Assembly: GCF_014646815.1 (NCBI RefSeq)
Contig: NZ_BMNZ01000007.1
Location: 124,001-188,000, forward strand
DNA: 64,000 nt
Reading direction: 5' to 3'
From: Terrabacter tumescens
Lineage (GTDB): Bacteria; Actinomycetota; Actinomycetes; Actinomycetales; Dermatophilaceae
Position 1 is the first letter of the stretch; each line of letters starts with the position of its first letter. Shown piece after piece: positions 3,498 to 46,050 of this stretch. The notes under the pieces were generated by a model that had not been told where the DNA came from, made no database searches, and worked only from the letters and a program-made list of their open reading frames with translations. A program made the position numbers and the translations under genes.

Positions 3498-4616
3498 TCA
3501 GGGTTCTGCGGGTGCGCGCGGGTCGGCGGCGGGTGTGCCGGCACCGGTGGTGGTGGCCGCGACGGCGGCGGTGATGGCGTGTCGTGTGCTGGACGGGCCG
3601 GACGTGGGGACGGGCACCGCGTGGATGCGGACGTCTCCCCCGACGACGGCGACGTCGACGAGCTCGAGGCGCCGGACGTCCGAGACGGACCTGATGCCGA
3701 GGTCGGCGACCGCGGCGGGGCCGGCGCCGAGCAAGGCCGGTGCCACATAGGCGTAGACGTCGTCGACGAGGCCGGCGCCGAGGAAGGCCGCTGCGAGCGT
3801 CGGGCCTCCCTCGAGCCAGACGTCGCGGATCCCCCTGTGCCACAGCAGGTCCAGCGCCTCGCGCGGGTCCTGAGTCTGCAGATGGACCAATGTGCCGGGC
3901 TCGTCGCGGACACGCGCGCCGGGCGGGACGGCTCGCAACCCCATGACAGCGCGAAGGGGCTGGTCCGGCGCGAGCGCGCCACCCGGCATACGCACTGTGA
4001 GTCTGGGGTCGTCGGCGAGGACGGTGCCGGTGCCCACGAGGACGGCGTCGCGGGTCGCGCGCAGCAGGTGGACGTCGGCCCGGGCCTCCTCGCCCGTGAT
4101 CCACTGGCTGCTGCCGTCGGCGGCCGCGCTGCGACCGTCGAGGGTGGTGGCCAGCTTCCACGTGACGAGCGGGCGGCCGAGCGCCACGGTGCGGGCCCAG
4201 CGCTCGTTGACCGCGGCCGCCTCGTCGGCGAGGACGCCACCGCTGACGTGGACCCCCGCGGCGTGCAGCCGCTCGGCACCGCCGGCGGCGTCGGGGTTCG
4301 GGTCGGACTGGGCGAAGACGACGCGCGCGACGCCGGCCTCGGCGAGGGCGGAGGAGCACGGGCCGGTGCGCCCCGTGTGCGAGCACGGCTCGAGGGTGAC
4401 GAAGGCCGTCGCCCCTCGCGCAGCGTCGCCCGCCTCACGGAGCGCCTCGATCTCGGCGTGCGGGGTCCCGGCGCCGTGGTGGAAGCCCTCCCCCACGACC
4501 GCGCCGTCGGGCGCGACGATGACGCACCCGACGCGCGGGTTGGGGTCGGGCCACGGCCCCGAGGCGGCGAGCTTGAGGGCTCGCCGCATCCAGGCCGGGG
4601 CCGCGGTGTCACCCAT
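3498..4616 (-). CDS. ribD: Bifunctional pyrimidine deaminase / reductase
   Basis: RibD deaminates the GTP cyclohydrolase product and reduces its ribosyl side chain. The 372-residue protein has an N-terminal zinc deaminase domain with HAEIEAL near residue 54 and PCSHTGRTGPC near residues 77-87. A DHFR-like reductase domain begins near WKLATTLDGR. It follows ribM by 3 nt, so it sits second in the riboswitch operon. The C-terminal tail, rich in Ala, Thr and Pro, goes beyond the usual family end. Confidence 0.95.
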   Translation of the reverse strand: MGDTAAPAWMRRALKLAASGPWPDPNPRVGCVIVAPDGAVVGEGFHHGAGTPHAEIEALREAGDAARGATAFVTLEPCSHTGRTGPCSSALAEAGVARVVFAQSDPNPDAAGGAERLHAAGVHVSGGVLADEAAAVNERWARTVALGRPLVTWKLATTLDGRSAAADGSSQWITGEEARADVHLLRATRDAVLVGTGTVLADDPRLTVRMPGGALAPDQPLRAVMGLRAVPPGARVRDEPGTLVHLQTQDPREALDLLWHRGIRDVWLEGGPTLAAAFLGAGLVDDVYAYVAPALLGAGPAAVADLGIRSVSDVRRLELVDVAVVGGDVRIHAVPVPTSGPSSTRHAITAAVAATTTGAGTPAADPRAPAEP

Positions 4617-5378: not shown

Positions 5379-5498
5379 GTGGTGTTCGTCCTTGGTGGTT
5401 CGTCGTGGCACGGACGAACTCCGGGGTACCTCCACACGCCCACGCGGTCCGGGCCGGCACGGACGACGCCGACGGCCCAGGCCACGACGGCCTGTTTC

Positions 5499-5624
5499 GT
5501 GCTGCCTCCCATCCGGACTTTCACCGTCGGTCCCGGAATTTCACCAGGTCAACCGGCCGCTGGATGCGGTCGGGTCGCGGACTTTAACCGCCGGCTCGGA
5601 ATTACACCGACCCCGGAGCACGTA
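5499..5624 (-). promoter_or_regulatory. FMN riboswitch (RFN element)
   Basis: Read on the minus strand, the aptamer runs from CTCCGGGGTCGG through the conserved cores GCCGGCGGTTAAAGTCC and GACGGTGAAAGTCCGGATG to GGGAGGCAGC. These are the hallmark blocks of the FMN-binding RFN element. It ends about 120 nt before ribM. Binding of FMN should lower expression of ribM, ribD, ribE, ribBA and ribH. The platform between 5379 and 5498 holds two copies of GTCCGTGCC but no clear U-tract terminator, so translational control or Rho is more likely than simple termination. Confidence 0.93.
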
Positions 5625-38938: not shown

Positions 38939-38972
38939 GCGGCAATGTTGGACGTCCCGTCCTCCGTGCGGC
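38939..38972. repeat. 34-bp repeat, copy A (IS110 insertion site)
   Basis: This 34-bp sequence, GCGGCAATGT...CCGTGCGGC, recurs as copy B at 40902-40935 with 32 of 34 bases identical. The internal GGAC/GTCC can pair. Homology stops exactly at the GGC where the first IS110 element is predicted to be inserted, so this copy seems to have been cut by the element. It begins 6 nt after the mazF stop. Confidence 0.75.
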
Positions 38973-38989
38973 TACTTAGAGACTGGTTG

Positions 38990-39160
38990 CAGGATCGGTG
39001 TCCGGCCAGACTCGGTCCAGGTGCTCGGCGAGACGCTCTCATATGCGGCTGCCCACCGGCGTCATTGGTGTGGCTCTCTCATGGCATGCGCTCTCGTCGG
39101 GCACCGCGCGAGGAGAGGCTCTAAAGGGGTTTGTTCTGCTCAAAGTAGCGATGCCCTCCC
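38990..39160 (+). ncRNA. Candidate bridge RNA of IS110 element 1
   Basis: Two guide pairs are visible. Target loop: TGCGGC (39044-39049) equals the left flank plus core (38967-38972), and CTCATGGC (39078-39085) is complementary to core plus right flank (40414-40421). Donor loop: CTAAAGGGGT (39121-39130) equals the right end (40404-40413), and AAGTAGC (39143-39149) is complementary to the left end (38971-38977). A hairpin GCC-CACC/GGTG-T-GGC sits between the target guides, and GGGCACCGC (39099-39107) pairs with GCGATGCCC (39148-39156) with one mismatch. Limits are approximate. Confidence 0.72.
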
Positions 39161-39201
39161 CGCTTCCACACCACGGAGCGAAATGAGGAGGTGCACGGGC
39201 G

Positions 39202-40260
39202 ATGGGCGTGATCATCGGGATGGACCCGCACAAGCGCTCGGCCACGATCGAGGTCATCGACCAGACCGGGCGAGTACTCGAGGTGGGGCGGTTCGACACG
39301 AACGAGGCCGGCTACGCGGCGATGCTCGCCGCGGGCCGGGCCTACGGGTCGAGCGGTGAGCGGGTGTGGGCGGTCGAGGGCTGCAACGGCATTGGCCGGC
39401 ACATCGCCCACCGCCTCGTCCATGACGGGGAACGGGTGGTGGACGTGCCGACGAAGCTGTCGGCGCAGGTACGGGTCTTCGCCACCGGTAACGCCCGCAA
39501 GACCGACCCGGTCGATGCCCACTCCGTGGCCCTCGCCGCGTTGTATGCGCCGGCCGAGCCCGGGCTGCGGCCGGTGCTGGTCGAGGATGACCTGGTCGTG
39601 ATGGGCATGATGGTCGACCGCCGCGACGAGCTCGGTCGGGCCCGGACCCAGACGGTCAACCGGCTGCATCGGCTTCTGCTGGAACTGATTCCGGGTGGCG
39701 CGAAGACGTTCTTGTCCGCGCCGCAGGCCCGAGCGTTGGTCGCCAAGGTGAAGCCGCGCGACCTCGTCGGGAAGACCCGTCGCCGTCTCGTCGTCGAACT
39801 GATCGGGGAGCTCGAGGTGATCGACCGCAAGATCAAGACCGCCGAGAAAGAGCTGACCGCGCTCGTGCAGGAGCGCGGCTCGACCCTGCTGGAGCTGACC
39901 GGGATCGGCCCGACCGGCGCCGCGCGGCTGCTGGCCGGCGTCGGGGACATCCACCGCTTCCGGGACAAGGACCGGTTCGCCTCGTGGAACGGCACCGCGC
40001 CCTTGGATGCGTCCTCCGGGGCGCAGCAACGCCACCGGCTGTCCCGTGCCGGGAACCGCCGGATCAATCGGACGCTGCACATCATGGCCGTCGTGCAGCT
40101 GCGTAACCCGAGCCCGGGGCGTGAGTTCTACGACGCCCGCAAGGCCGGCGGGACACCGTCGCTGATGGCGATGCGGTCCCTGAAGCGGCGCCTGCCGAAT
40201 GTCGTGTACGCGGATGGTCGCCGACCAGACCCGCCGCGACCTTGCCCTCCGCGCGCGTGA
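39202..40260 (+). CDS. IS110-family transposase, element 1, C-terminal tail frameshifted
   Basis: This serine/DEDD recombinase of 352 residues has the RuvC-like DEDD residues in IGMDPHK, VEGCNGIG and KTDPVDAHSVA. The C-terminal Tnp20 domain has LTGIGPTGAARLL and the catalytic serine region PLDASSG. After RLPNVVYA the frame turns into DGRRPDPPRPCPPRA and stops. In the next frame it continues MVADQTRRD...VTGPGGHRGN to 40402, matching element 2. A shift of one base near 40212-40216 is responsible. Both catalytic domains are intact, so activity may remain. GAGGAGG lies upstream of the ATG. Confidence 0.88.
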   Translation: MGVIIGMDPHKRSATIEVIDQTGRVLEVGRFDTNEAGYAAMLAAGRAYGSSGERVWAVEGCNGIGRHIAHRLVHDGERVVDVPTKLSAQVRVFATGNARKTDPVDAHSVALAALYAPAEPGLRPVLVEDDLVVMGMMVDRRDELGRARTQTVNRLHRLLLELIPGGAKTFLSAPQARALVAKVKPRDLVGKTRRRLVVELIGELEVIDRKIKTAEKELTALVQERGSTLLELTGIGPTGAARLLAGVGDIHRFRDKDRFASWNGTAPLDASSGAQQRHRLSRAGNRRINRTLHIMAVVQLRNPSPGREFYDARKAGGTPSLMAMRSLKRRLPNVVYADGRRPDPPRPCPPRA

Positions 40261-40261
40261 G

Positions 40262-40341
40262 GTGACGGGCCCGGGAGGGCACCGGGGCAACGTCTCTGAC
40301 TCCAGCGTGACCGGCTCACAACCCCACACCGGCTCTTCGGA
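40262..40341 (+). repeat. 80-nt block nearly identical to the matching part of element 2
   Basis: Positions 40262-40341 match 45805-45884 at 79 of 80 bases, while the surrounding transposase genes differ at many third positions. In element 2 the block codes for the VTGPGGHRGN...SSVTGSQPHTGSS tail; here it lies beyond the frameshift. The sequence is rich in GGGCCC- and CCGG-type self-complementary pieces. Confidence 0.8.
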
Positions 40342-40492
40342 GAAGCCTCTTCCCGGACCCGTCACCACCCAGCGTAGAACCCCGGCCCTCGCCACGTCTT
40401 GACCTAAAGGGGTGCCATGAGCGTGCGTTGCGGACTTCTTGACGGACGAATGGCGACTGCTACTGGGCTATGAGCGATGCGAGACTACGACC

Positions 40493-40901: not shown

Positions 40902-40935
40902 GCGGCAATGTCGGACGTCCCGTCCTCCGAGCGGC
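40902..40935. repeat. 34-bp repeat, copy B (uninterrupted side)
   Basis: This copy, GCGGCAATGT...CCGAGCGGC, differs from copy A at two positions and is in the same orientation, 1.96 kb away. It lies 28 nt after the stop of the preceding gene, as copy A lies just after mazF, so these look like gene-end intergenic repeats. It is followed by AGTTGAGG, not by CATG, so it is not a full IS110 target. Confidence 0.7.
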
Positions 40936-44491: not shown

Positions 44492-44548
44492 CGAAGGCGG
44501 CCTTGGGCGGAGCCCTCGCTCGCAGAGCGGCTACTTGTTTCATTGACG

Positions 44549-44718
44549 TAAGGACCGGTGCCTGCGCAGGCTCGGTTCAGGTGTCCGGGTTCGTCGCTCG
44601 CAAAAGCGGCTGCCCACGCCTTGTCGTGTGGCTCTCACATGGGTTGCGCCGCCCGGGCACCGCCGGGCAGGAGAGGCTCAAGAAGGGATTGCTCTGCTCG
44701 AAGTAGCGGTGCCCTCCA
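44549..44718 (+). ncRNA. Candidate bridge RNA of IS110 element 2
   Basis: Target loop: AGCGGC (44605-44610) equals left flank plus core (44526-44531), and CACATGG (44636-44642) is complementary to CCATGTG (45958-45964), extendable by G-U pairs. Donor loop: AGAAGGGA (44681-44688) equals the right end (45949-45956), and AAGTAGC (44701-44707) is complementary to the left end (44530-44536). The GCC-CAC/GTG-T-GGC hairpin keeps the same bulged T as element 1, and GGGCACCGC (44655-44663) pairs perfectly with GCGGTGCCC (44706-44714). Confidence 0.75.
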
Positions 44719-44757
44719 CGCCCAACCAGTGATCGGTTCGAGGCAACGGAGGACGCG

Positions 44758-45945
44758 GTGAACGAAGATGTCTCGCGGGTCGTGATCGGCATGGACCCGC
44801 ACAAGCGCACGGTGACGATCGAGGTGATGACTGCCGACGAGACGGTCGTCGACGGGGGCCGCTTCGACACGACGGTCGAGGGGTACGCAGCAATGCTCGA
44901 GCACGTCGAGGCCTGGCCGGACCGGGTGTGGGCCATCGAGGGCTGCGAGGGCATCGGCCGGCACATCGCGCACCGGCTCCTCGCCCACGGGCAGGACATC
45001 GTCGATGTGCCGGCGAAGCTGTCCGCAAAGGCGCGGGTGTTCGCGACCGGGCAGGGCCGCAAGACGGATGCGACCGACGCGCACTCGGTCGCCCTGGTCG
45101 GTACCCGCATGGCTGGCCTGCGGCCGGTGGTGTCCGATGCGCAGCTTGAGGTGCTGCAGCTGCTCGTCGACCGGCGGCGCTCGATCGGGGACGAACACAC
45201 CCGCAAGGTCAGCCAGCTGCACCGAATCCTGTTGGAAATGCTGCCTGGTGGGGCAAAGAAGTACCTCTCGGCGGCCCAAGCGCGGGCTCTGCTGTCCACG
45301 GCGCGTCCGAGGGATGAGGTCGGTAAGACCCGCAAGCGAGTGGCCATGGAGCTGGTGGCCGACCTGGAGCGGATCTATGCGCGCAAGAAGGCCGCCGACA
45401 AGGAGCTGAAGGAGCTCGTCGCAGCGACCGGCACCTCCCTGCTCGGGCTGCACGGCATCGGCCCCTCCGGCGCCGCGCGGCTGCTCGTCGAGGTCGGGGA
45501 CCTGGCCCGGTTCCCGGACCGCAACCACTTCGCCTCCTGGACCGGGACCGCCCCGATCGACGCCTCCTCCGGTGACCACGTGAGGCACCGGCTCTCCCGT
45601 GGCGGGAACCGGCAGATCAACCGGGTGCTGCACATCATGGCCACCGTCCAGCTGCGGACCCCGACCGAGGGCCGCGCCTACTTCGACCGGAAGAAGGCCG
45701 CCGGGAAGACCTCGATGGAAGCGATGCGCTGCCTCAAACGGCGCCTGTCCGACCTCGTCTTCCGCAAGTCGCCCGGCGACTACGTCGCTGGCCGGCTCAC
45801 CACCGTGACGGGCCCGGGAGGGCACCGGGGCAACGGCTCTGACTCCAGCGTGACCGGCTCACAACCCCACACCGGCTCTTCGGACCAGCCACTTCCCGGA
45901 CCCGCCACGACCCACCCTAGAACGGCCTTGCCGACCGCGTCTTGA
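44758..45945 (+). CDS. IS110-family transposase, element 2
   Basis: This intact 395-residue recombinase has DEDD residues in VIGMDPHKR, IEGCEGIG and ATDAHSVA, and a C-terminal Tnp20 domain with LHGIGPSGAARLL and PIDASSG containing the catalytic serine. It starts at GTG 44758 after GGAGG. The C-terminal 60 residues form a Gly/Ser/Pro-rich tail after VTGPGGHRGN that probably is not needed for folding. It should act with the RNA from its own left end. Confidence 0.93.
   Translation: MNEDVSRVVIGMDPHKRTVTIEVMTADETVVDGGRFDTTVEGYAAMLEHVEAWPDRVWAIEGCEGIGRHIAHRLLAHGQDIVDVPAKLSAKARVFATGQGRKTDATDAHSVALVGTRMAGLRPVVSDAQLEVLQLLVDRRRSIGDEHTRKVSQLHRILLEMLPGGAKKYLSAAQARALLSTARPRDEVGKTRKRVAMELVADLERIYARKKAADKELKELVAATGTSLLGLHGIGPSGAARLLVEVGDLARFPDRNHFASWTGTAPIDASSGDHVRHRLSRGGNRQINRVLHIMATVQLRTPTEGRAYFDRKKAAGKTSMEAMRCLKRRLSDLVFRKSPGDYVAGRLTTVTGPGGHRGNGSDSSVTGSQPHTGSSDQPLPGPATTHPRTALPTAS
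45805..45884 (+). repeat. 80-nt block nearly identical to element 1
   Basis: This is the counterpart of 40262-40341 (79 of 80 bases). It lies in the reading frame of the transposase tail here. The sharp contrast with the diverged flanks suggests gene conversion or a nucleic-acid-level function near the right end. Confidence 0.8.
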
Positions 45946-46050
45946 CACAGAAGGGAGCCATGTGGGGACGACTTCGCCCTTAGTTGGAGGCATCTAGGGG
46001 ACGCTCTCCACGCGTGCGGCGTCCACCAGATCCTCGACAGCCGCGAGGCG

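Follow-up and report, generated by a model that had tools for sequence, protein, structure and literature searches.

The DNA analyzed here (the window) is a stretch of 64,000 nucleotides (nt) of Terrabacter tumescens (assembly GCF_014646815.1, contig NZ_BMNZ01000007.1, positions 124,001 to 188,000 of the forward strand; coordinates below are those of the window), and hosts two IS110-group elements on the plus strand. Element 1 (38971..40415) and element 2 (44530..45958) both run core to core, with a GC dinucleotide at each end. The cores of element 2, on which the analysis is centered, are found at 44530-44531 and 45957-45958, are preceded by AGCG on the left and followed by CATGTG on the right, and lie in boundary columns which align in relatives. 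Its recombinase (44758..45945, plus strand, 395 amino acids) features a DEDD_Tnp_IS110 domain (PF01548, 67.3 bits) and a Transposase_20 domain (PF02371, 79.3 bits), and the closest relatives from named genera come from Humibacillus, Terrabacter and Knoellia (best segment, 84-92%). The open reading frames (ORFs) of elements 1 and 2 share 71.6% identity at the DNA level. The C-terminal tail of the element 1 recombinase (39202..40260, plus strand) departs from the frame of its relatives, the closest of which align to residues 1-337 or 1-338 of 352, and the gene stops 137 nt upstream of the right-end motif. Element 2 is an IS110-group insertion sequence carrying in its left end an IS621-type bridge RNA; guides were found in the left end, not in the right end, where the bridge RNA of IS1111-group elements resides.

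The putative bridge RNA of element 2 spans approximately 44545..44722 on the plus strand, and its fold is supported by RNAalifold analysis of 85 left ends. The consensus value is -52.7, versus -8.7 +- 2.7 in 30 column shuffles, and the predicted fold includes 41 pairs, with 97.2% of cells paired and 17 pairs showing compensatory types. Four predicted guides, all on the plus strand as their partners, match the DNA at the ends of the element and next to them. The left target guide (LTG; AGCGGC, 44605..44610) has the same letters as the left target (LT) plus core (AGCGGC, 44526..44531), and the right target guide (RTG; CACATGG, 44636..44642) is the reverse complement of CCATGTG at 45958-45964, being complementary to the core plus right target (RT; GCCATGTG, 45957..45964) except for one core position. 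The left donor guide (LDG; AGAAGGGA, 44681..44688) repeats the letters of the left donor (LD; AGAAGGGA, 45949..45956) in the right end, and the right donor guide (RDG; AAGTAGC, 44701..44707) is the reverse complement of the core plus right donor (RD; GCTACTT, 44530..44536). The matches thus extend over 6 nt for LTG and left flank, 7 nt for RTG and right flank, 8 nt for LDG and right end, and 7 nt for RDG and left end.

The guides of element 1 pair likewise with their own letters, as TAAAGGGGT at 39122-39130 and 40405-40413. Both elements, and the motifs quoted in the initial annotation, were found where it had placed them. From these two sequences it had read a covariation of guides with ends and flanks, in which three donor-guide positions, one in the left target guide, and one or two in the right target guide change together. 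The three donor positions (-1, -5 and -7 of the left half) and the single left-target position (-4) do change in concert. One right-target change (+5) is concordant as well; the second is not a covariation, because position 44643 opposes the core, where element 2 mismatches it. The stem GGGCACCGC/GCGGTGCCC, described as kept in both elements, is perfect in element 2, and carries one mismatch in element 1 (GCGATGCCC).

The covariation was monitored in relatives taken from named contigs and from genomes of the family of the host, 134 elements being left upon removal of identical copies. Among the 128 left ends aligned, 15 elements were dropped because they lack the GGC left boundary, 18 because their right end is off the boundary pattern, and 5 because the right core is not GC; 90 elements were kept, 89 of which entered the permutation test (2000 permutations), one more being lost for a short flank. 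The right-end boundary pattern uses no guide letters, but restricts the LD letters that can be observed, and counter-examples might therefore hide among the 23 elements dropped for their right end. Matches between a guide and its own DNA surpass all permutations (0/2000 each) for LT (4.70 of 7 vs. 3.49 expected; 89 distinct guide-end pairs), RT (4.57 of 7 vs. 3.01; 86 pairs), LD (7.37 of 8 vs. 6.59; 35 pairs) and RD (4.85 of 5 vs. 3.87; 40 pairs). Expectation is exceeded at LT -2 to -6, RT +2 to +5, LD -5 and -7, and RD +2 to +5. The reading proposed from two sequences is hence borne out by the alignment of 89 elements, and its five positions fare unequally. LD -5 and -7 are strong, LD -1 (match 0.60 vs. 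0.45 expected) and RT +5 middling, LT -4 weak (0.39 vs. 0.21, z 4.9).

Off-register cells reached z 7.5 once and 3 to 5 in several other instances. As this denotes a contribution of relatedness, nearest relatives with a different guide letter were paired as contrasts, and the DNA was scored for following the guide at both ends. Pairs following the guide are 8/9, 28/30, 3/27, 12/38 and 10/40 at LT -2, -3, -4, -5 and -6, respectively; 31/32, 8/33, 26/44 and 17/42 at RT +2, +3, +4 and +5; 23/36, 30/33 and 14/17 at LD -1, -5 and -7; and 12/12, 4/4, 11/11 and 28/31 at RD +2, +3, +4 and +5. Contrasts are best at LT -2 and -3, RT +2 and +4, LD -5 and -7, and RD +2 to +5. Strong positions are those of the donor side and the inner ones of the target; LT -4, which differs between elements 1 and 2, is weakest. 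Covariation of guides with ends is strong in these elements, yet already known as a principle, and element 2 joins the published IS621 system (PMC11208160).

In published IS621-type work (PMC11208160, PMC11208158), the core takes part in every guide pairing. In the 90 elements kept, the GC core is present in 88 LTG and in all RDG, fully in 56 RTG, and in no LDG. In the groups of element 1 (15 sites) and element 2 (43 sites), 98-100% of target flanks have a C at -9 and 93% a G at +8; in the 50-60% group (30 sites) G is at +7 in 97%, and TGACGC is seen. These fixed letters may be met by conserved guide letters past the variable part (a bulged extension) or by a protein contact. A handshake pairing as in IS621 was dropped as a candidate, LD -1 being unsupported and only LT -2 showing some excess (0.49 vs. 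0.38; 1/2000 permutations, with no control for relatedness). Two other ideas on targets were dropped: that they are palindromes as a rule, the flanks of 88 sites pairing outside the guides barely above swapped flanks (longest stem 4.06 vs. 3.87; 29/500 permutations), and that they are members of a repetitive extragenic palindrome family of the own genome, the unit being rare (6 places at one mismatch at most; 2 for a control pattern). A looser target pattern found 24 matches (6 for the control), only three of which, judged by eye, have a repeat-unit context. Near-identical 34-nt units reside at 38939-38972, interrupted by element 1, and at 40902-40935, where an empty unit is located between the two elements. 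A related unit is seen in the flanks of L106 and L042, and is in tandem in L106.

At the right end of element 2, TTGACA (45942..45947, plus strand) is a candidate -35 box for a promoter formed where right and left ends join. TTGAC is found in 90/90 right ends, though the boundary pattern itself partly demanded these letters, and the TGA stop of the recombinase falls inside it in 70/90 elements. Across the candidate junction of element 2, a potential partner, TTTCAT, is found 17 nt after TTGACA.

A second conserved sequence, which folds as a pseudoknotted RNA, resides on the minus strand of both elements (45802..45913 in element 2, 116 bits; 40259..40370 in element 1, 120.9 bits), and in element 2 is antisense to the 3' end of the recombinase gene. 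The two RNAs are 92% identical, against the 71.6% of the ORFs; the 119-nt repeat shared by the elements is conserved at 93%, and the other long repeat of the pair at 74%. Among the 44 closest relatives, codon conservation at 45805-45920 is 0.87 at third positions, and 0.87 and 0.90 at first and second positions; upstream, the values are 0.77, and 0.86 and 0.88. In 84 sequences RNAalifold yielded -13.0 for the plus and -38.3 for the minus strand (minus-strand shuffles, -4.9 +- 2.8). Cells in minus-strand helices comprise 1832 Watson-Crick pairs, 343 GU pairs on the minus strand, 84 of them contributed by one invariant pair, no GU pairs on the plus strand, and 8 other combinations. The pseudoknot joins the loop of the inner hairpin to the 3' side of the RNA (columns 47-51 with 84-88), and has the top covariation score among the helices listed. 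The fold, pseudoknot included, comprises 31 pairs; in 73 sequences, from which the structure was itself derived, pairing holds in 98.7% of cells and 116 changes affect both sides. None of 500 shuffles reached any of five measures, and slid controls paired 34.5-59.3% of cells. A -10-like element, TANNNT (45914..45919, minus strand), immediately precedes the RNA; its fixed letters are found in 90, 89 and 90 of 90 elements, and the motif is present before 44/45 IS110 copies.

In the family of the host (186 genomes), P0001-like recombinases were detected in 62 genomes (E 1e-60) and the RNA in 65 (E 1e-4), among which G150 has it only in part. The two are linked, the RNA being present in 59/62 genomes with a P0001-like recombinase (the exceptions are G010, G069 and G132) and in 6/124 genomes without it. 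Since IS110 proteins identified by PF02371 are found in 125/186 genomes, the RNA marks only part of IS110. In a sample of the phylum the RNA was matched in 15/396 genomes, own genome included, and in the genus of G574, which its Rfam matches (F6 and Ms_IGR-2) suggest to be mycobacterial, in 89/198 genomes. An IS110 gene accompanies 3 of 28 new loci in the latter genus (L260, L261 and L269), and none was detected at 25; fourteen loci share one common context, and seven another. Matches were also found in 13 plasmid records, 7 of them from Rhodococcus, and in 1/50,697 phage records, the unannotated MT839997.1 (5,658 bases, from human faeces; positions 3697-3794, 82% over 59% of the query).

Among the 28 loci of that genus, 20 were compared with Rfam models, and 7 passed gathering as Ms_IGR-2 (RF02467) and 6 as ncrMT1302 (RF02341). 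One of the six is the IS110-borne L260 (46.3 bits vs. a cut-off of 45). Conversely, R1, a model built from IS110-borne copies only, scores 70-87 bits at all 13 loci passing gathering, as 76.5 bits on the ncrMT1302 locus L264, and 44.8-73.6 bits at four further loci; the Rfam names are Ms_IGR-2 for L242 (73.6 bits with R1), L243 and L247, and ncrMT1302 for L251. TANNNT precedes most of these RNAs, and GGGG and CCCCC stretches are seen by eye at the expected pseudoknot place in the ncrMT1302 alignment. The loci differ from element 2 in being chromosomal, located beside an ORF resembling, by eye, an LLM oxidoreductase and the F6 small RNA (sRNA), or beside adenylate cyclase. A gene for the latter (Ad_Cy_reg plus Guanylate_cyc) adjoins 4/4 ncrMT1302-type loci examined. 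PMC4109619 and PMC8628891 place ncrMT1302 and Mcr11/MTS0997 beside an adenylate cyclase gene, and the locus suggests that they are one RNA. In a 2026 paper (PMC12840758) MTS0997 (Mcr11) and MTS1338 are described as present only in highly pathogenic mycobacteria; the homologues found here speak against such a restriction for the wider MTS0997 family.

Copies of the RNA are referred to as solo when neither a P0001-like nor a P0002-like match lies within some 1.5 kb. In a tree of 97 copies, in which IS110-borne copies belong to at least nine named actinobacterial families, the solo state needs 13 changes, at least 8 of which are forced by starred branches; the tree relies on 112 columns, and is poorly resolved and unrooted, with unsettled bootstrap. 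TANNNT is found before 30/35 solo copies, and before 4% of shuffled upstream sequences. In five of the 11 solo copies whose right side was inspected (L258, L274, L321, L327 and L249), the RNA is still preceded by an IS110 right end, comprising TTGACA and an LD-like end; in L327 a recombinase scrap is also present. The copy in L258 (1501-1613), with its right end and no recombinase, faces a SIR2-like gene. In L252, 5 nt separate the end of a weak copy (183-307; 39.3 bits) from the stop of a gene on the other strand, which encodes a DDE transposase of a different family. Left ends were found in none of 8 larger regions surrounding solo copies (five with a right end), in a search recovering only 4/7 controls, and cargo-bearing IS110 elements are not claimed. 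The own genome holds two more copies of the RNA (G000:C1:847298 and G000:C16:19), each located where a contig ends and adjoined by an IS110 right end; they probably stem from a third IS110 element whose copies were collapsed.

Other readings of these data are conceivable. Matches of guides and ends might be remnants of common descent, with no pairing needed; relatedness does add signal, as off-register cells denote, and LT -4 to -6 are weak in contrasts. Such an origin is very unlikely, given that the strongest cells are in register for every guide, that target flanks match though not inherited with the element, and that near relatives differing in the guide differ likewise in ends and flanks wherever contrasts are strong (28/30 at LT -3, 31/32 at RT +2, 30/33 at LD -5, 28/31 at RD +5). 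It is hardly credible, too, that the conserved 3' segment is merely a conserved protein tail. Recombinase frames traverse it in 70/90 elements, up to the stop in TTGAC, but third codon positions are conserved as much as the others, the structure covaries with GU pairs confined to one strand, element 1 retains the segment out of frame, and copies with no detected recombinase exist. That the segment acts as DNA, forming a cruciform or binding a protein in recombination, or else terminates the recombinase mRNA, would fit its adjoining the right end and the location of several solo copies, which are tail to tail with a gene. The segregation of GU pairs (343 vs. 0 cells), the covariation of the pseudoknot and the frequency of TANNNT before solo copies make this improbable, and so does the description, in PMC10454040 and PMC8628891, of IGR-2 and Mcr11 as transcripts.

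The direction of descent is less settled. Chromosomal sRNAs might be the source from which IS110 picked the RNA up, or both might derive from an older host RNA. Matches are indeed common in one genus (89/198 genomes), mostly with no IS110 gene (25/28 loci), and the tree is unrooted. Such a source is nonetheless rather unlikely, because IS110-borne copies span at least nine named families, solo copies occupy several distinct parts of the tree, and 5/11 of them keep the IS110 right end before the RNA. Descent of the solo chromosomal copies from IS110 copies is the favored alternative, the rest of the element having presumably been lost repeatedly and the RNA kept.

The best explanation overall, and a highly probable one, is that element 2 is an IS110 element moved by a bridge RNA, with a second RNA on the opposite strand at its right end. 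One loop of the left-end RNA would pair with both target halves around the GC core, the other with the right and left ends of the element joined in a circular form. Guides must match these DNA sequences, and hence guides and DNA change together. As predicted from sequence, guide pairings, covariation across relatives and the left-end fold are well established; by analogy with IS621, the bridge RNA would bind the recombinase and direct strand exchange. The conserved fold with its pseudoknot, the strand, the -10 motif and the homology to Rfam families are similarly firm as predicted attributes of the second RNA, whose transcription would start at the right end and run into the recombinase gene, yielding a small RNA with a regulatory role. 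The foremost candidate role, put forward tentatively, is that it pairs with the mRNA of the recombinase encoded by the same element and damps it, acting through the conserved loops as well. A wider proposal, towards which the data lean slightly, is that an actinobacterial IS110 clade carries a second, pseudoknotted RNA that persists when the element is lost and has been turned into a host sRNA on several occasions, Ms_IGR-2 and Mcr11/ncrMT1302 included.

Several observations weigh against these interpretations. On the side of the bridge RNA, the LDG has no core pairing (GC in 0/90), unlike the core pairing described for IS621; the near-fixed C -9 and G +8 have no varying partner and fall outside the covarying guide; LT -4 to -6 seldom follow the guide in contrasts, and no covariation was found in the 89 elements at LT -7 and beyond or at RT +6 and beyond. 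Searches for the IS621 handshake gave no support at LD -1 (706/2000 permutations as high) and no Watson-Crick pair at LD -2 or LT -1. As to the second RNA, TANNNT precedes only 10/16 far IS110 copies, and pairing with the own bridge RNA is no better than with another's (45/90 elements). The RNA of element 2 scores 20.8 and 21.5 bits with the two Rfam models, far under the cut-off of 45, and the E-values of R1 are rough. Both RNAs of element 2 are predictions from sequence, and, the tree being unrooted and poorly resolved, the direction of descent is not proven. A match of the antisense RNA to its own target was also sought in the 90 elements, and rejected, as it is not above swapped pairs.

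With IS621, as described in PMC11208160 and PMC11208158, element 2 shares a recombinase made of DEDD and Transposase_20 domains, a left-end bridge RNA with two guide loops, a dinucleotide core, a candidate junction promoter, and guides covarying with target and donor. It differs in the core, which is GC here and CT in IS621, in the LDG, which has no GC opposite the core (0/90), in the C at -9 and the G at +8, which hardly vary and lie beyond the covarying guide, and in the second, antisense RNA in the right end. Opposite ends of the IS110-family element ISPpu9, according to PMC8450116, host an antisense (Asr9) and a sense (Ssr9) sRNA, an arrangement similar to that proposed here. Asr9 is upstream, antisense to the 5' leader; the RNA of element 2, in contrast, overlaps the recombinase 3' end, and does not pair preferentially with the bridge RNA of the same element.

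Antisense RNAs of other insertion sequences, such as RNA-OUT of IS10, lie opposite the transposase gene and pair with the 5' end of the mRNA. The RNA described here is opposite the recombinase 3' end, and its pseudoknotted fold persists where copies are found apart from the gene. Among the literature matches listed (15 of 3,889 in one search), none describes an antisense RNA at an IS110 3' end, which is no proof of absence, and no paper joining Mcr11 and IS110 was found in a search that left out most subscription papers and the preprints. Elsewhere in the window, an FMN riboswitch (RF00050, 94.1 bits) is located at 5496-5624, minus strand.

The set of GC-core bridge RNAs, with natural variation in all four guides, can serve for testing how evolution reprograms guides. 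An antisense RNA would give one of the simplest mobile elements a second RNA. If the descent proposed is true, Mcr11 and Ms_IGR-2 would acquire an origin, along with many structural relatives from beyond the mycobacteria, a regulator studied in mycobacteria would be an RNA domesticated from a transposon, and the origin of such sRNAs becomes testable by comparison.
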